From NCBI GenBank assembly GCA_900109895.1, contig FOBR01000021.1, positions 1 to 64,000 on the forward strand: 64,000 nucleotides of DNA, in the 5' to 3' direction. Of this stretch, positions 3,713 through 20,727 are shown piece by piece; within the stretch, counting starts at the first letter, position 1, and every line of letters begins with the position of its first letter. Under the pieces are notes generated by a model. It was not told the DNA's origin. It made no database searches and saw only the letters and a program-made list of their open reading frames with translations. The position numbers and the translations under genes are program-made. This DNA comes from a bacterium A37T11. GTDB taxonomy: Bacteria > Bacteroidota > Bacteroidia > Sphingobacteriales > Sphingobacteriaceae.

Positions 3713-4996
3713 TTAGTTGTATACCCATTTCACCACTGTTCCCTTCCTCGCATTTCCCAACAACCTGGATCCGGCATAGAATGGTGAGCGGGCTTTAAAG
3801 TCCATGACCGCATTGAGCACAAAGTTCTCATAGAGGGAGGAGGGTGTCTGCAGGATAAAACGGCGGCAGGCCGTGCTTCCCTGCACGGTGCCTTTAAGTT
3901 CCAGCCAACCATCTGCATAGACCTGGCCGTAGACCAGCGCATCCTGGGCTATTTTCAGTATTGCCATGTCCTGGTCACGGCCGGGCGCATAGGTAAAAAC
4001 CGTTCCTTTGACAATGCTGGCACTGTCTACGCGCAGTAGAGGCTGTATGGTGTTGACCACCTTAGCAGTATCTATATTAAGTAACCCCAATGCAGAAGGG
4101 TAGTCCAGCCGGCACTCCCTGCCCACTATCAGCGTGTCGCTGGCAAACAGCTGCAGCCTGCCTGAAAAACCATCTTCTACACGGATCACCGGTGCAAACA
4201 CCAGGATGTCTTCCAGATTAGCATCGGCAGCAATCGTTACCGGCGCCGTACTGTGCACGATCAGGTTCCCACGCAAAGCCATACCACTCATATATACCGA
4301 ATCGGTTAGTGAGAGCAACAGGGCAGGAGGCACAAAAGAACGTAGCAACGAATCTCCCGGGGGAGGCAAAGAAATTAGCTCCAATGAATCAGGAACAATT
4401 TCCAGATCATGCAACAAATGCGTAATGATATCAGGCTGTAAGGGTGGAAGCGAGGCTTCACTATCATGGGTGGTACCCTGCACGGGTTTGCCACCCTCAT
4501 AAGCCGTACCTTCTATATAGGCGATGCGCACACCAGCAGGAGGGAGGTAGGCATCTCCGTTGATCACTGTACGTCCAGACAACGAAACAGGACGGTCTTC
4601 ATTGGCCAGGTAGAGCGCATAGCATTCATTAGGTTCAGCCTTTACCCCCATAAGGCCTGCCTGCCGTAACGTATCCCCTTGCTCAAAGGTGGCTACCAAT
4701 CCCAGCTGAAAAATACCCCAGGGCCTTTTTTCCAGCCATACCGAGTCGCCCGGTACCGTATCTCCATAGAGGCTCATAGCTAACCGGCTTCCTTCGGGTA
4801 TGAACGCATCGGCTAAGAGCAAGTTCAACCCGGAGGTAACATTATTTTCCAGACGCTGTGCCCTATTACCCTGCAAGAAATAACCGCGGCTGTACTGCTG
4901 CATGAGCATCAGCGAACTCAGGATGACCAGGATGATCACCGACATCGCGATCACCAGCAACAACGCCCCCCCTTTGAGTTTTCCAGCATTTCCCAT
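3713..4996 (-). CDS. Pilin-like/PilX-like N-terminal membrane protein
   Basis: 427 residues. The N-terminus (KGGALLLVIAMSVIILVILSSLMLM, residues 9-33) looks like the hydrophobic helix of type IV pilin-associated PilX-type or pseudopilin proteins: a short basic leader, one long helix, then an extracytoplasmic domain. The rest is rich in beta strands with repeated short turns, reminiscent of polymer-forming (bactofilin-like) folds (LRGNLIVHSTAPVTIAADANLEDILVFAP ... GQVYADGWLELKGTVQGS). No catalytic motif seen. A truncated, rearranged copy is at 15512-15845 and a shorter 5'-flank relic near 6000-6150. Function unknown. Confidence 0.7.
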   Translation of the reverse strand: MGNAGKLKGGALLLVIAMSVIILVILSSLMLMQQYSRGYFLQGNRAQRLENNVTSGLNLLLADAFIPEGSRLAMSLYGDTVPGDSVWLEKRPWGIFQLGLVATFEQGDTLRQAGLMGVKAEPNECYALYLANEDRPVSLSGRTVINGDAYLPPAGVRIAYIEGTAYEGGKPVQGTTHDSEASLPPLQPDIITHLLHDLEIVPDSLELISLPPPGDSLLRSFVPPALLLSLTDSVYMSGMALRGNLIVHSTAPVTIAADANLEDILVFAPVIRVEDGFSGRLQLFASDTLIVGRECRLDYPSALGLLNIDTAKVVNTIQPLLRVDSASIVKGTVFTYAPGRDQDMAILKIAQDALVYGQVYADGWLELKGTVQGSTACRRFILQTPSSLYENFVLNAVMDFKARSPFYAGSRLLGNARKGTVVKWVYN

Positions 4997-5006
4997 GAGG
5001 CCAAGT

Positions 5007-5092
5007 TACCTGTCTGTTTTTCATATTCACCACGGAAAACAGCCTGTTCACCACGAAAAAATGCCTGTTGGCGTAAATATGGTTATTTATAG
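5007..5092. repeat. Dispersed repeat R1, copy 1
   Basis: The ~85 bp upstream of the pilin-like gene contain two near-identical ~21-bp units (TTCACCACG-GAAAA-GCCTG) and the tail GGTTATTTATAG. The same text recurs at 6081-6145 with a single unit and at 15859-15928 with two. It is the 5' flank of the gene, carried along with the decayed copies. Confidence 0.75.
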
Positions 5093-6080: not shown

Positions 6081-6145
6081 TCTGTTTTTCAAATTCACCT
6101 CGGAAAAATGCCTGTTGGCAAAAATATGGTTATTTATAGTAAGCA
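6081..6145. repeat. Dispersed repeat R1, copy 2 (one 21-bp unit)
   Basis: TCTGTTTTTCAAATTCACC followed by one CCTCGGAAAAATGCCTG unit and the GGTTATTTATAG tail, as upstream of the pilin-like gene but with one of the two tandem units missing. Just before it (6036-6075) a short piece of the pilin-like 5' coding end survives in scrambled form. Confidence 0.6.
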
Positions 6146-15511: not shown

Positions 15512-15845
15512 TAGGTAAAACCGTTCCTATGATCGTTCTGGTATTGTCGATGCGCAGTAGAGGCTTTATGGTGGTGACTACCTTGCCAGTATCCAGCAGG
15601 AGGGAGAAAAGCATCTCCGTTGATCACCGTACGTCTAGACAACGAAATGGGGCTGTCTTCATCCGCGAGGAGCAAGTTCAAAGCGGAGGCAGCATTATGT
15701 TCCAGACGCTGTGCCCTATTACCCTGCAAGAAATAACCGCGACTGTACTGCTGAGCATCAGCGAACTCAGGATGACCAGGATGATCACCGACATCGCGAT
15801 CACCAGCAACAACGCCCCTCCTTTGAGTTTTCCAGCATTTCCCAT
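15512..15845 (-). pseudogene. Decayed copy of the pilin-like gene
   Basis: The start region (ATG at 15845) and N-terminal helix match the gene at 3713-4996. The copy then loses 4 bp near the 'LMLMQQYSRGY' codons (frameshift). The pieces QYSRGYFLQGNRAQRLEHN, ADEDSPISLSRRTVINGDAF and the codons around the 'TVFT' region are joined by internal deletions. About 330 bp remain of 1284. It is followed upstream by repeat R1 copy 3. Confidence 0.75.
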
Positions 15846-15858
15846 GAGGCCAAGTTAC

Positions 15859-15928
15859 CTGTCTGTTTTTCAAATTCACCACGGAAAACAGCCTGTTCAC
15901 CACGAAAAAATGCCTGTTGGCATAAATA
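15859..15928. repeat. Dispersed repeat R1, copy 3
   Basis: Same 5' flank as upstream of the pilin-like gene, with both tandem ~21-bp units, ending in GCCTGTTGGCATAAATAT; the GGTTATTTATAG tail is lost. Confidence 0.7.
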
Positions 15929-15947
15929 TCCCGTCAACAACCCCTCA

Positions 15948-16441
15948 AAAAACCCATTTGGGTTTTTCCCGGACCCATATCGGTTTACGTGGAATGGGAA
16001 AGGGAACGCGGCATACCCCTATAAAATCCCCGTAAACTAGTCTGGGTTGATGGTTCACCCAGACCGGTGCACACAGCTCTCTGCTGGTCCAGCGGTAAAC
16101 ACTAATGGGTTCACCGTGACACGGTATGGGTACGCGGCTTATTTAAATGAGTTTACCGTGTACCCATATCGTTGTTATATTATACCGAAACGGGTTCCCT
16201 TCGTACTTATATGAGTGTGCGGTGAACCCATATGGGTTCGCGGTAAACTGGTATCGGTATGCCTCGAACCGATAACCTTTTGCATACAACCGAAAAGGGT
16301 ATACGGTATACCCACACGAATATACCGCATACCCAAACAAAACAGCGGCGGCCCGGTTATGGGTCGCCGCTATTGGGTGTAGGTTTGCTGTAAAACCATT
16401 CCGGTTTAACGTGTAGGCATATGGGTATGATGAATACCCAT
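15948..16441. repeat. Palindrome-rich stretch
   Basis: About 500 bp with no convincing gene but many short perfect inverted repeats sharing the words ACCC/GGGT, GTATAC and CGGTAAAC. Seen directly: AAAAACCC-4-GGGTTTTT (15948-15967), GTCTGGGT-9-ACCCAGAC (16040-16064), ACCGTGACACGGT (16113-16125), GAACCCATATGGGTTC (16224-16239), GGGTATACGGTATACCC (16297-16313), a ~10-bp GC-rich stem at 16344-16371 and ATGGGTAT-5-ATACCCAT (16421-16441). The first could act as a bidirectional terminator. The rest look like a field of operators or hairpins of unknown use. Confidence 0.6.
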
Positions 16442-16447
16442 ACCGGT

Positions 16448-16942
16448 TTAGGGCCAAAATCGCTTTCGGAGTAACCAAGCCAAGGAAGCCACGAGTATCA
16501 CCGACAGACCTACGATCCACCAGGACCAGCCCGTACTGACAGCGACCGACCGATTGGTTGCTTCGCTTCGTTTGTCAATATGGCTGCTATCAGTCAACGC
16601 GATAGACACCTTGGAAACCAGCCGGCTGCCGGAAAACTGCAACGAATCTTCCTGCATGGCTTTTTGGCGATACACGACTACCTGGCTGGCCTTACCAATA
16701 AAGCCCGAGTCCGGATGGTAACGAAATGCCCCCACCGGGGAGAGGACCAAAGCCTCCTGCAGGTCGTAATTCCGGTGCAGCCACATTTCCTTCAGCGTGT
16801 CCAACTGCGTTAAGTCCACTTTTCTTTGAACGGAACTATGCATTTCGCTTTGTTGGGAAGCATCGCTTTTCAACTGGCGTTTGGTACTGCAAGAAATGCT
16901 CCATAGCACGACTGTAATGAGCATGACACTTAAGCGTTTCAT
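16448..16942 (-). CDS. Lipoprotein with C-terminal transmembrane helix
   Basis: I chose the ATG at 16942 because it gives a clean lipoprotein signal (MKRLSVMLITVVLWSISC, lipobox SISC); a longer frame starts at 16975 but would overlap the FN3 gene. The mature protein of ~147 residues is polar (KRQLKSDASQQSEMHSSVQRKVD) and ends with a single hydrophobic helix (WWIVGLSVILVASLAWLL) and a basic tail. A lipid anchor plus a C-terminal helix would span the periplasm between two membranes. No family recognised. It is the last gene of the CHAP operon and lies 14 bp after the FN3 gene. Confidence 0.65.
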   Translation of the reverse strand: MKRLSVMLITVVLWSISCSTKRQLKSDASQQSEMHSSVQRKVDLTQLDTLKEMWLHRNYDLQEALVLSPVGAFRYHPDSGFIGKASQVVVYRQKAMQEDSLQFSGSRLVSKVSIALTDSSHIDKRSEATNRSVAVSTGWSWWIVGLSVILVASLAWLLRKRFWP

Positions 16943-16955
16943 ATCAACTGCATCC

Positions 16956-17597
16956 TTAAGCATCCACCTGGGCAATCAGGGAAGAAACAGGGCTCCAGCC
17001 ACTAATGCCACGCTTGTTACGCGCACGTACCCGGAAATAGTACCGTACACCGTCTTGCACCGGTGAATAGAAGTTGCCGCGTGAGTTTGAGTTGCTGCCC
17101 GCAGACTTCCATATCAACTGGTTCTGCTCATCGTTTTCCCAGGCAATCTGCATCTCGTAGTCGTAAGCCTCCCTCACGGCCGGAAACTCCAGCAGGATTT
17201 CGGCTGGCCTCGATGAAAGACGCAGACGACTCCATGCCGGAGCCGATGGGCTGCCCAGGCTCTTCGGGTCTGCGACGGGAAGGAAACCAGAACTTAACTG
17301 TACGGAGCTCACATCCGTAAAGTTATTGATGTAACTGCTCACCCTGCGCATCATAATGATGAGTACTTCGCGGGCCTCATCCTTTTCTTTCTTTTGCTGC
17401 GCGCTGGCATTCCGGTTGGCGGTGATGCCCTGCTTGGCGATATAGTCAAGTGCCGCTGCTTCATAATCAGCAAACGGAGGGTTCAGGTTCGGAAAATTGG
17501 TATTCGTGCGCAGTGCATCCGCAGAGCGTGTGGCTAAAGAAGCGAGGTCAGCGTCGCTTAAATACTTGTAATTACTGATTAATTTGGGAGTTCTCAT
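16956..17597 (-). CDS. Fibronectin type III domain protein
   Basis: 213 residues without signal peptide. Residues ~1-110 are helical (DADLASLATRSADALRTN, AQQKKEKDEAREVLIIMMRR). Residues ~115-212 look like one fibronectin type III domain (SPSAPAWSRLRLS, YDYEMQIAWEN, GVRYYFRVRARNKRGISGWS). Proteins with this layout are frequent in Bacteroidota, often near phage-like or cell-wall genes, with no assigned function. Third gene of the minus-strand operon after the 4-TM protein and the CHAP hydrolase. Confidence 0.75.
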   Translation of the reverse strand: MRTPKLISNYKYLSDADLASLATRSADALRTNTNFPNLNPPFADYEAAALDYIAKQGITANRNASAQQKKEKDEAREVLIIMMRRVSSYINNFTDVSSVQLSSGFLPVADPKSLGSPSAPAWSRLRLSSRPAEILLEFPAVREAYDYEMQIAWENDEQNQLIWKSAGSNSNSRGNFYSPVQDGVRYYFRVRARNKRGISGWSPVSSLIAQVDA

Positions 17598-17656
17598 TGT
17601 TTTTGTTTTTGTTTTTAATTTTTATGTATTCAATTATTTAATAGAATTTCTTAGAA

Positions 17657-17696
17657 CGTCATCCGGAGCGAACGAAGTGAGTCGAAGGATCTCTGC
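17657..17696. repeat. REP-like intergenic repeat
   Basis: CGTCATCCGGAGCGAACGAA followed by GTGAGTCGAAGGATCTCTGC. This 'GTCAT.C.GAGCGAA...CGA(A)GGATCT' text is a dispersed intergenic repeat familiar from many genomes. It sits in the gap between the FN3 and CHAP genes. Confidence 0.5.
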
Positions 17697-17727
17697 TATT
17701 TCCGTTGTACTTCGTTCAACATGCCGA

Positions 17728-18408
17728 TTATTTTGAGATCCAATCAGCGACTTTGTAAATCGTTTTGATCAGTCTCTTTTTTCGGTATACGCCTTCTCCA
17801 GGGCCTGCACGGATAGGGTGGGAGGGATCGTCTGCGGGTGCAATGGCACCGGTATTGTTGGTATTGGCTTCGACTGTGATGCACCAAATTCCATCCCAAC
17901 TGTCTACAAATCCGCAATGGCCAATGCGTTTTAGTTCGGAGAAGTATAAGCCGAATACGTCGCCGGCTAAGGGAGTTGTACGTTGTAAGTTATACGTTGT
18001 AAGTCCCTGCATGGCGCCAATTGGCTTCTGTTGCTTCTTTTCCCAAACAACACGTTTCGCCGGAAACAATGCCGGTGCCCAGCCGTTCTTTGGATTGCCA
18101 ATACCGGCTTCGTGTAAACACCAGCACACGTAGGCAGCACAATAAGAATAGCCTTTTGTAAGACCAATGTACTTTAAGTATTTCTCAACCTCCGGCCCGT
18201 CGTTCTTAACAGTTGCCTCCCGAACCCCAATTTCGGCGGTGTAAATGTGGCGGAGGGTTTGGCGTTGTGATGAGGTCTGTAGCGATCCAGAACCCATCGG
18301 CGTCGCTACATCCTTATTTGGTTTGTTTACAACAAAACCAAAAATACCGCACAGCACAACAAAACCAATCCGGAAAAAATACCTGTCAAAATCTTTGCTT
18401 CTAAACAT
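17728..18408 (-). CDS. CHAP-domain peptidoglycan hydrolase (NlpC/P60-like)
   Basis: 226 residues. Residues ~10-28 (YFFRIGFVVLCGIFGFVV) form a signal anchor. The domain at ~55-215 has the CHAP landmarks: Cys in YSYCAAYVCW, His in IGHCGFVDSW and Asn in VEANTNN, the expected Cys-His-Asn order. Such enzymes cut peptide cross-links or act as amidases on peptidoglycan. A Shine-Dalgarno-like AAAGGAAT lies 4-5 bp before the ATG, supporting this start even though it overlaps the 4-TM gene by 82 bp. The codons for the short TTYNLQRTT stretch hold a 12-bp tandem duplication. The context suggests a cell-wall-acting unit controlled by the upstream RteC/LytTR genes. Confidence 0.8.
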   Translation of the reverse strand: MFRSKDFDRYFFRIGFVVLCGIFGFVVNKPNKDVATPMGSGSLQTSSQRQTLRHIYTAEIGVREATVKNDGPEVEKYLKYIGLTKGYSYCAAYVCWCLHEAGIGNPKNGWAPALFPAKRVVWEKKQQKPIGAMQGLTTYNLQRTTPLAGDVFGLYFSELKRIGHCGFVDSWDGIWCITVEANTNNTGAIAPADDPSHPIRAGPGEGVYRKKRLIKTIYKVADWISK

Positions 18409-18791
18409 GACGTGATTCCTTTCTTTAAATAATCGTGTTCATCATCCCATTCATAAAATTCCGTGAGGGTAGGGCGTACCATTCGCAGCAGAAGCCAGGC
18501 TGATACCACAAAAGCATCGACCATAAGGATAGCGAGAAGAACCGCGCTCAGCACCCCAATATCCAGAGCTGCTGCACTGGGGTCTATCAGTCTCAGTAAA
18601 GGCCCGCTGTATACAAACAACCCTAGTAAAATAAGTACCTGCCCCACTGCAATCAAAGCCTTCCAACCCAGCCAATGCCAGAAATTGAATCCATTCAGTT
18701 CCCGTTCCCAGGCCATTTCCTCCGCTAAGTCGGCTTCACTAAGCGGGTAACCATTTATCCCGATTACCGGGATCTCTTTTTGTTTTTGCAT
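18327..18791 (-). CDS. Four-TM membrane protein
   Basis: 154 residues with about four hydrophobic helices (WLGWKALIAVGQVLILLGLFVY; DIGVLSAVLLAILMVDAFVVSAW; ... GIFSGLVLLCCAVFLVLL). The N-terminal 35 residues are cytoplasmic-like and polar. A strong ribosome binding site (AAAGGAGT) precedes the ATG. Its last 27 codons overlap the start of the CHAP gene in another frame. First gene after the twin palindromes, so probably the direct target of their regulator. Size and position are holin-like, but I cannot assign a family. Confidence 0.7.
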   Translation of the reverse strand: MQKQKEIPVIGINGYPLSEADLAEEMAWERELNGFNFWHWLGWKALIAVGQVLILLGLFVYSGPLLRLIDPSAAALDIGVLSAVLLAILMVDAFVVSAWLLLRMVRPTLTEFYEWDDEHDYLKKGITSCLEAKILTGIFSGLVLLCCAVFLVLL

Positions 18792-18846: not shown

Positions 18847-18984
18847 TTATCACAAGTTGAACCGTATACGGTGTTTTTTTTAAAAAGAAATAGATAGGGG
18901 ATTTAATGAGGTTTCATCGGTTGTTTTTTGGGTATCACAATAGGTTTAGGAGGTTATCACAAGTTGAACCGTATACGGTGTTTT
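18847..18984. promoter_or_regulatory. Two direct repeats with ACCGTATACGGT palindrome (candidate RteC operators)
   Basis: An exact 31-bp direct repeat occurs at 18847-18877 and 18954-18984, 107 bp apart. Each copy contains the perfect palindrome ACCGTATACGGT (18861-18872, 18968-18979). The upstream copy ends in the stop codon of the RteC-like gene; the other lies 56 bp before the ATG of the 4-TM gene. The position between a regulator and the next operon, and the ~10-turn spacing, suggest cooperative binding. That RteC binds here is inference. Confidence 0.55.
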
Positions 18985-19831
18985 ATTCATCGGCATCATC
19001 CATGCGATTATTCAGGGCGTCAAGAAGTTCATCCAAAAAAACGGTGCGACCCTTTTTCCGGATGCGCAGTTCCTGAAACACGCGGTAAATATTGCCCAGG
19101 TCAATGAAAAATACACATTCAAAGTAGTCGCTGATCTGTTTGAGATCAGCCTGCCCATTGTTGAATACATGCCGGGATTCCAACGCATAGATCAATTCGG
19201 TTAACGCAGCCTTGGGAGCTGTCCAACGCATCGGAGACAACTGACCGGGCAATTGCAGGCTAAAGTCCATCTTTCCGGGTTTACTCAACGCTTCCAGCGC
19301 ATCGGTGAGATAGAGGCGCAACAGCTCATTAGCCATCATCTCAGCCACACGGTAGTCGTGGCTGCTGCTGAAGCGGTGGTCTGAGTCGGCATAATGGTTG
19401 TCAAGCCCCAGTCGGAAATCGTACTGGCCCCGCCTGAAAAATTTTTCATCCAAGTAAGTCATTCCCGAGCGGTAATATCGGTAGAATTCCAGATTTTGTT
19501 TATAATACTGGTTAATATGGTCCTGTGCTTTCTGCAAATACCGGCGCATGGCCTTGTCATTTCCACCGGGTTTATTGACCTCCAGGCTGTAAAGCGCCTG
19601 ATGGTAGATCAGCTTGCTGTAAATAGTCGGTTTGATCTCTTTAAAAAACAAGATCTCTTCGGCAGGATCGATAAAATGATACTCAACAATAAATTGTTTT
19701 AGCGACTGTAAACCAACATCCAGTACGTGGAGTGATAGCTCTGATCGTTTGATGGGATGGTCGACTTCCAAGGCAATATTACCCAGGTCCTCCTGTATCC
19801 GGGCTTCGAGTTGTTTGCAAAATGTTTTCAT
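18983..19831 (-). CDS. rteC: RteC-family regulator
   Basis: 282 residues, the usual length of RteC. Landmarks are FIVEYHFIDPAEEILFFKEI, YRYYRSGMTYLDEKFFRRGQ, SSSHDYRVAEMMANELLRLYL and a C-terminal helical part with a winged-helix-like stretch (LTELIYALESRHVFNNGQADLKQISDYFECVF, then FQELRIRKKGRTVFLDELLDALNNRM). In CTnDOT, RteC is the DNA-binding protein that activates excision genes; here no integrase or excision gene is visible. It lies 20 bp after the LytTR gene and upstream of the twin palindromes. A role as activator of the CHAP operon is inferred. Confidence 0.85.
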   Translation of the reverse strand: MKTFCKQLEARIQEDLGNIALEVDHPIKRSELSLHVLDVGLQSLKQFIVEYHFIDPAEEILFFKEIKPTIYSKLIYHQALYSLEVNKPGGNDKAMRRYLQKAQDHINQYYKQNLEFYRYYRSGMTYLDEKFFRRGQYDFRLGLDNHYADSDHRFSSSHDYRVAEMMANELLRLYLTDALEALSKPGKMDFSLQLPGQLSPMRWTAPKAALTELIYALESRHVFNNGQADLKQISDYFECVFFIDLGNIYRVFQELRIRKKGRTVFLDELLDALNNRMDDADE

Positions 19832-19851: not shown

Positions 19852-20727
19852 TTAAACTATACGTGGTGTGGCCCAGGCTATGACCGCTGCCGCATTTTCA
19901 CGTCCTACATGGATTGTCAGGTTTAATTTATCCAGAAGCTTTAGTTCCAATGATCGGTTGGGTTTATTGGACCAGCTGGCGATGCTGGAGATACATACAA
20001 TATACTGCCGTGATACCTTATGAAACCAATCCGGATTCATGTATTTGGATAATTCCTCCACCGGGTATGGGTTTAAATAACTACGTCCATCACGCATGAC
20101 GACCGTGTGTCCTTCATCCTTGAAACTAAAATAAGCAATATCACAGACCCAAATAGTCATCTCCTTATAACCGTTGCGCATGCGCAATTGGTGAGGACGT
20201 TCCGTCGAGCGCTTAAATTTCGTAGCCCATTCAGCCAATTTATGGATCACCTTCAGATAAGTAAAAGCCTGTGATAGAGAATAGATGAGAATATATAGCA
20301 CATTTAGCGAAAAAAGAAATAGGGCTCCTATTTTAAATTCGTTGCTTAGATAGGCCAGTATACGTTCAGATACTCCCAGTACGGAATAAATAAACCAAAA
20401 GACTATCGAGGGAAGTAACAGTGGAAGAAAGTAACAAAAGATCAGCTGTTTTTTGAGTCGTTCCCGAAGATCAGTGACCCACGGCCACTTCCTGTCAAGC
20501 CTTCTGGTCATCCAGTGGTTAAATTCTAATACGATGAAAGTAACAAGGCAGCTTAGAACGAGCGCCAACCAATAGGATGGACTGCGGAAATGAGTGATCA
20601 GATCATCCGCTTCTTTAATAACCATCACCTGATGGCCGATAAAAATACTCAGCAGGAGCCGGAGCCATAGTGGCAAATACCTTAATTGGCTAGGGGGAAG
20701 GGTCCCCTGACGTAAAATTGTTTCCAT
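19852..20727 (-). CDS. Membrane-bound LytTR-domain regulator
   Basis: 291 residues. Four hydrophobic helices in the first ~160 residues (LWLRLLLSIFIGHQVMVI; WLALVLSCLVTFIVLEF; IFCYFLPLLLPSIVFWFIYS; ALFLFSLNVLYILIYSLS). The C-terminal ~100 residues are a LytTR DNA-binding domain (VCDIAYFSFKDEGHTVVMRD, then DWFHKVSRQYIVCISSI). There is no receiver domain, so it would be a membrane one-component regulator. It starts the minus-strand unit with the RteC gene. A promoter-like TTG-N19-TATTTTTG is found 43 bp upstream. Confidence 0.85.
   Translation of the reverse strand: METILRQGTLPPSQLRYLPLWLRLLLSIFIGHQVMVIKEADDLITHFRSPSYWLALVLSCLVTFIVLEFNHWMTRRLDRKWPWVTDLRERLKKQLIFCYFLPLLLPSIVFWFIYSVLGVSERILAYLSNEFKIGALFLFSLNVLYILIYSLSQAFTYLKVIHKLAEWATKFKRSTERPHQLRMRNGYKEMTIWVCDIAYFSFKDEGHTVVMRDGRSYLNPYPVEELSKYMNPDWFHKVSRQYIVCISSIASWSNKPNRSLELKLLDKLNLTIHVGRENAAAVIAWATPRIV

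Follow-up and report, generated by a model that had tools for sequence, protein, structure and literature searches.

Introduction

Located at a promoter or origin, plasmid iterons and LytTR tandem sites consist of a few well-conserved direct repeats that are spaced by about two helical turns and lack dyad symmetry, and the STRR sequences of cyanobacteria are arrays of heptanucleotide (7-bp) direct repeats. Heptanucleotide repeats of the TAACTGA type occur in Beggiatoaceae, Cyanobacteria, and Bacteroidetes (PMC4679880). On plasmid pSM19035, ParB/Omega, a ribbon-helix-helix protein, binds the parS heptads (non-palindromic 7-bp repeats, 7–10 per site; PMC9499535). Here, we analyze an intergenic segment within a 64,000-nucleotide stretch of DNA from the bacterium A37T11 of the Sphingobacteriaceae (hereafter, the window). 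The original prediction described this segment as a field of distinct palindromes that could act as an operator cluster, a structured RNA, or a recombination/transfer site. We find a degenerate array with a 21-bp period, two-fold symmetric units, and a nearly unbroken register, and we compare it with related arrays and with the systems above.

Results

Autocorrelation, unit segmentation, and a cyclic HMM identified positions 15948–16450 as a noncoding, degenerate tandem array in which a 21-bp unit is repeated about 23 times (no strand assigned), with the dyad-centered consensus ATGGGTTTgCgGtgaACCCAT and a single interior +1 phase shift near 16174. The self-match of the region peaked at 0.44, 0.42, and 0.38 for 21, 42, and 63 bp, respectively, over a background of 0.25, and segmentation yielded units such as GGTTCGCGGTAAACTGGTATC, AGTTTACCGTGTACCCATATC, and GGTATACGGTATACCCACACG. 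These peaks contradict the original prediction, in which the palindromes were held not to be copies of a single unit. The 21-bp unit is two-fold symmetric. In a periodic sequence, one dyad implies a second dyad center in every period; two palindromes therefore fall within each 21 bp, and point mutation makes each copy look distinct. The palindromes are the two dyad centers of one diverged 21-bp unit, and the words ACCC/GGGT, GTATAC, and CGGTAAAC are pieces of that unit.

Both palindromes singled out previously are present and perfect: GAACCCATATGGGTTC at 16224–16239 (no strand assigned), which marks an inter-unit dyad center, and GGGTATACGGTATACCC at 16297–16313. Perfect palindromes with a central loop of 0–1 base numbered eight with arms of at least 4, four with at least 5, three with at least 6, and two with arms of 8. 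Compared with 500 dinucleotide shuffles, the count was above the shuffled sequence, but only mildly so: four versus a mean of 1.6 for arms of at least 5 (matched in 41/500) and three versus 0.5 for arms of at least 6 (matched in 7/500). The periodicity, rather than the bare count, is the real signal. The overall symmetry of the array, in contrast, is far beyond chance; its folding z was −8.1 and −7.9 on the two strands, and its dyad phase score of 0.363 exceeded those of all 200 column-permuted arrays, in which the repeat was retained.

The stop codon of the last gene in a minus-strand operon marks the start of the array. The first operon gene (18327–18791) encodes a small predicted membrane protein, with membrane segments read from the sequence, and is followed by genes for a CHAP-domain, endolysin-like protein recognized by domain match (17728–18408), an Fn3-like protein with a weak match to phage minor tail proteins (16956–17597), and a small lipoprotein with a C-terminal TM segment (16448–16975), which was recognized from its paralogues and had no match in Pfam, PHROG, or NCBIfam. 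The neighboring genes, also on the minus strand, encode an RteC-family protein (18983–19831; PF09357, E=7e-77) and a LytTR DNA-binding protein (19852–20727; PF04397). On the minus strand, a GC-rich hairpin at 16344–16371 followed by GTTTTGTTT is probably the intrinsic terminator of the operon, and hairpins homologous to it stand after a paralogue (C10:32816-33343) and inside a second array (C10:9535-9996). A second terminator-like structure on the minus strand, with a 17-pair stem and TTTTCGG after it, occupies two neighboring units at 16297–16334 and contains GGGTATACGGTATACCC. By sequence and fold, the left edge of the array (15951–15970, no strand assigned) forms the stem AAAAACCC-ATTT-GGGTTTTT, which is made of unit words and is terminator-like in both directions.

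The membrane protein–CHAP–Fn3–lipoprotein operon (16448–18791 in the window) recurs in about 13 copies in this genome and in at least three in genus G003 of the same family, frequently with a small HTH, RteC, or LytTR gene in front of it. It looks like a domesticated phage lysis-type cassette. Five of the approximately 13 copies are directly flanked by arrays, on the 3′ side in the window and at locus L149 and on the 5′ side at L141, L142, and L146, whereas about 8/13 have none; in G003, arrays flank two of the three copies (3′ at L150 and 5′ at L152). In three cases, the 5′ array separates the operon start from a small HTH-like gene, with the HTH_17 match at L152 falling below the Pfam cutoff. 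No transcription-factor gene adjoins the arrays C10, C28b, and L055, and a DUF6364 (RHH-like) gene adjoins the array C28a.

In the region that separates the operon start from the RteC gene, the sequence ATCACAAGTTGAACCGTATACGGTGTTTT occurs twice (18849–18880 and 18956–18985, 107 bp apart). These twin palindromes, noted earlier at 18861 and 18968 for their GTATAC, are real, but they lie off the 21-bp lattice, and neither the core of ATCACAAGTTGAACCGTATACGGTGTTTT nor the full motif was found elsewhere in the approximately 1 Mb of the genome that was fetched. The shared GTATAC is therefore no evidence of kinship with the array, and we reject that relationship; the twins are a separate direct-repeat pair and, plausibly, a candidate operator pair. 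On the other side of the array, the gene at 15530–15929 is a truncated copy of the intact gene at 3713–4996. A 70-bp segment that contains the 21-bp direct repeat TTCACCACGGAAAACAGCCTG occurs at 15860–15929 and 5011–5080 in the window, and also at 6081–6116 and in G000:C17 (79.7–86.0 kb), recurring upstream of duplicated gene starts.

The window array has a full-length homologue in the same genome (G000:C10:9535-9996; 68% identity), which sits between the stop codon of one gene and a neighboring gene; their translations suggest a glycosidase and a SusC-type protein, respectively. The two arrays share the GC-rich hairpin in the same lattice register, and the same hairpin serves as the terminator after the paralogous operon. 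A periodicity scan of the genome, sampled as stretches amounting to about 1 Mb, revealed at least 10 further arrays with periods of 21, 42, or 63 bp outside recognizable genes. These arrays comprise several unrelated base sequences ("dialects"), and by extrapolation, as an estimate and not a count, the genome may hold some 50–70 of them. A weak 7-bp subperiod was detected in the window array (self-match of 0.30, with the 21-bp signal dominating), C10, and C28b, and four other dialects were without it. Away from the operon, the other arrays of this genome occupy unrelated gaps between genes. Several arrays fill whole intergenic gaps, beginning a few bp from a stop codon and extending up to the next gene, and C28a and L141 stand between divergent genes.

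Among relatives, sampled stretches of G003 contained two 21-bp arrays, and 180 kb of that genus sampled away from the operon gave two weak signals only. Sampled stretches of G001, G006, G007, G013, G016, and G028 (same family) contained other periods, heptamers, gene repeats, or nothing, and in G006 the operon is preceded by irregular repeats (11/37 bp). DNA of the window-array type had no match in 59 relatives' genomes. When 84,980 genomes were scanned with two neighboring units of the window array, matches appeared only in three MAGs (Verrucomicrobia, Marinilabiliaceae, and Mycobacterium), so the sequence is close to private; the Verrucomicrobia matches are two 21-bp array contigs, and the Marinilabiliaceae match is short and heptamer-based. 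The unit search of the own genome found one full homologue, with most matches inside a few arrays, and its 22 forward matches were just twofold above the 11 of a reversed-pattern control. As separate observations, the Verrucomicrobia contigs (L042 and L044) carry perfect 21-bp arrays, GGTTTACCGCAAACCGTCCCA, at their ends, with the same architecture in another phylum; L100 (676–1925; G000:C20) holds a regular 66-bp repeat of about 1.2 kb with GGGCAATAACAAC words and CRISPR-like spacing; and L083 (17076–17600; G028) holds a nearly perfect 69-bp tandem repeat.

We assessed symmetry by permuting the 21 columns of each array (200 permutations per array), which retains the repeat and its degeneracy and destroys the dyads. 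The dyad symmetry of 12/16 arrays exceeded all 200 permutations, and two more gave p values of 0.02–0.035; these 14 include both G003 arrays. Symmetry was not beyond the permutations for L149 and L092, with the three phase shifts of L149 blurring its test. Among 10 controls with other periods or located in genes, two gave p = 0.005 and one gave 0.04. In a cyclic 21-state model of 15 arrays spanning several dialects, the period was exactly 21 bp, and each array had 0–4 interior shifts, usually of 1 bp, alongside 58–335 mismatches to its own consensus (28–48%). The window array and C10 differ by 137 substitutions and by a single 22-bp length difference, i.e., one unit plus 1 bp. Bacterial mutation accumulation yields roughly 0.1–0.36 indels per base substitution (PMC4978911). 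With this baseline, which comes from other species, about 14 or more small indels are expected between the two arrays and the probability of one or fewer is about 1.6e-5; the per-array mismatch counts are not independent events.

The information in the unit is mirror-symmetric about the dyad (GT...C.G...AC). Between the window array and C10, positions G2, T3, C7, G9, A13, and C14 (mirrored about position 8) diverge by 0.14–0.20 and most others by 0.3–0.57, with a rank correlation of −0.64 between divergence and information. When only well-aligned units were considered, core positions diverged by 0.14 versus 0.30 for the others (p=0.007), although similarity is uneven along the array and unit turnover may contribute. 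We tentatively attribute this pattern to purifying selection on the motif positions, part of which may stem from unit turnover.

The strong folding was not accompanied by covariation of the unit arms: z was 0.00 over 64 units, and the pooled z was −2.7 over nine arrays. Because complementary arm positions vary independently, the unit hairpins are not selected and the palindromes are not copied arm to arm. A unit-level hairpin RNA or DNA cruciform is rejected on these data, as is hairpin-templated correction of the palindromes, which would also yield covariation. The symmetry is at the DNA level rather than the RNA level because both strands fold equally well. Weak half-sites were not compensated by their dyad partners (combined z +2.3, in the opposite direction).

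Discussion

Our tentative explanation for the array, the best fit among the three roles first offered, is a lattice of protein sites that are two-fold symmetric, in phase with the helix, and would be occupied by a dimeric DNA-binding protein. Building on the observed period, symmetry, register, arm independence, and genomic context, we favor this reading because of the exact 21-bp period with few shifts, the recurring dyads, the mirror-symmetric information, and the arrays beside operon copies; the sites are taken to be read as DNA since their arms lack covariation and both strands fold equally. A symmetric motif at constrained spacing is also what marks operator and iteron arrays, whose motifs are symmetric or directed. 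One dimer would read one symmetric 21-bp unit. Since 21 bp corresponds to two turns of B-DNA, all sites would face the same side and neighboring dimers could polymerize or cooperate. The lattice would work through the spacing and number of its sites, such that poor individual sites are tolerated provided that the spacing is kept. At the window locus, the complex and the terminator stems at 16344–16371 and 16297–16334 would insulate the 3′ end of the operon from the gene beyond it, and at other operon copies a lattice between the small HTH gene and the operon start could control transcription. Several results count against a protein lattice: no candidate protein was picked out, the variety of dialects would call for more than one protein or for a single protein with very loose specificity, three arrays lack an adjacent transcription-factor gene, most operon copies lack an array, and the half-sites are uncompensated.

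The main alternative, possible if somewhat doubtful, is a neutral minisatellite without function: replication slippage would have multiplied a short symmetric sequence until it occupied the gap between the genes, and point mutation would now be eroding it. Symmetric sequences may stall polymerase. Such an origin agrees with the filling of whole gaps to within a few bp of stop codons, the extent to which units differ from their consensus, and the lack of matches to the window-array DNA in the 59 relatives' genomes, and the weak 7-bp subperiod in three arrays is like the heptamer repeats of many bacteria (PMC4679880). Decay without indels is unexpected for a minisatellite, however, and further points against it are the recurrence of dyad symmetry across unrelated dialects, the lower divergence of core positions between the window array and C10, and the recurrence of arrays beside one operon family in two genera.

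We consider it unlikely that the array forms part of a transcript, as a 3′ (or 5′) untranslated region, and acts through its stems as a terminator cluster or mRNA stabilizer. Folding was strong in the six arrays folded (z −4.2 to −9.4), and terminator-like stems for the minus-strand operon do stand inside the array, that at 16344–16371 being common to the paralogous operon and C10. At the level of the unit, the role is disfavored by the independent arms in 64 units and nine arrays and by the equal folding of both strands. The comparison of the window array with C10 gave a mixed covariation signal: the C10 plus-strand fold had 36 broken pairs versus 54 and 11 double changes versus 5.6 in a shuffled control, but no excess of double changes was found for the window-array fold or the minus-strand folds. 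Furthermore, some arrays lie between divergent genes (C28a and L141), and an Rfam search gave no match.

Very improbably, the 21-bp period reflects a seven-residue protein repeat whose frame explains the missing indels. Some arrays are open for 100–160 codons and heptad-like translations appear, but all frames have stops in 7/7 arrays checked, including the window array and C10, the interior shifts are mostly of 1 bp, the divergence between the window array and C10 is flat across the three codon positions, and mirror-symmetric conservation of the unit is not given by codons. A coding heptad repeat is thus largely refuted, and the open frame across the array is, as originally proposed, a by-product of the base pattern. 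Finally, RteC controls conjugative-element excision in Bacteroides and an RteC-family gene lies 2.5 kb away, but a recombination, integration, or transfer site of an RteC-linked mobile element is highly improbable given that the 18 window proteins scanned include no integrase, relaxase, or transfer gene, that plasmid and phage searches gave no match, and that, among the fetched loci, such arrays are also found away from any RteC match.

The phased lattice of protein sites could extend to a genome-wide system, a broader proposal that we regard as rather unlikely. Dozens of roughly 500-bp arrays, different in sequence and alike only in geometry (21 bp, dyad, and almost no indels), would be bound by dimeric proteins that polymerize along one helix face and insulate or silence particular operons, including the phage-lysis-like cassettes. 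Tandem repeats between genes are usually written off as debris of slippage; in the present case, the geometry is apparently kept while the sequence is not, and this holds for many arrays of one genome, for a second genus, and for arrays next to a recurring operon. Were this constraint real, it would point to an unrecognized way for bacteria to organize or insulate DNA and would supply a simple comparative test for any genome, namely the count of indels versus substitutions relative to the register.

A search of open-license papers found no account of 21-bp dyad arrays, and the described systems share only some of their features. A structured RNA of the Rfam type is not supported, as covarying pairs within units and a match to a curated family are both absent. 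Like REP/BIME elements, they are palindromic, intergenic, and often at gene 3′ ends, but REP/BIME elements are dispersed 20–40-bp copies of one sequence and linked to TnpA-REP, whereas these are tandem, fixed at 21 bp, and of several dialects; in the own-genome searches, the window array has one full homologue and most of its unit matches are clustered in a few arrays, rather than being dispersed copies of one palindrome. With STRR and TAACTGA heptamers they have in common short tandem repeats, an intergenic location, occurrence in Bacteroidetes, and, in the family of the window array, a weak 7-bp subperiod (21 = 3 × 7). Those heptamers are near-identical copies in one direction, unlike the two-fold symmetric, diverged, phase-locked 21-bp units in several dialects, and we reject membership in the STRR-type repeats because 21 bp dominates over 7 bp and the copies mismatch by 28–48%. 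With iterons and LytTR sites the arrays share the spacing of about 21 bp, which places sites on one helix face, and a LytTR gene lies near the operon in the window; the LytTR consensus partially resembles the array by eye only and is not clearly present. The pSM19035 parS site differs in having its binding protein, the only such link at the 21-bp arrays being the DUF6364 (RHH-like) gene beside C28a. In parS, contiguous short repeats overlap promoters, and small dimers bind cooperatively with low affinity for a single site. Contiguity there outweighs any one site (PMC9499535), and a protein that may bind the 21-bp arrays would likewise depend on the spacing and number of its sites.
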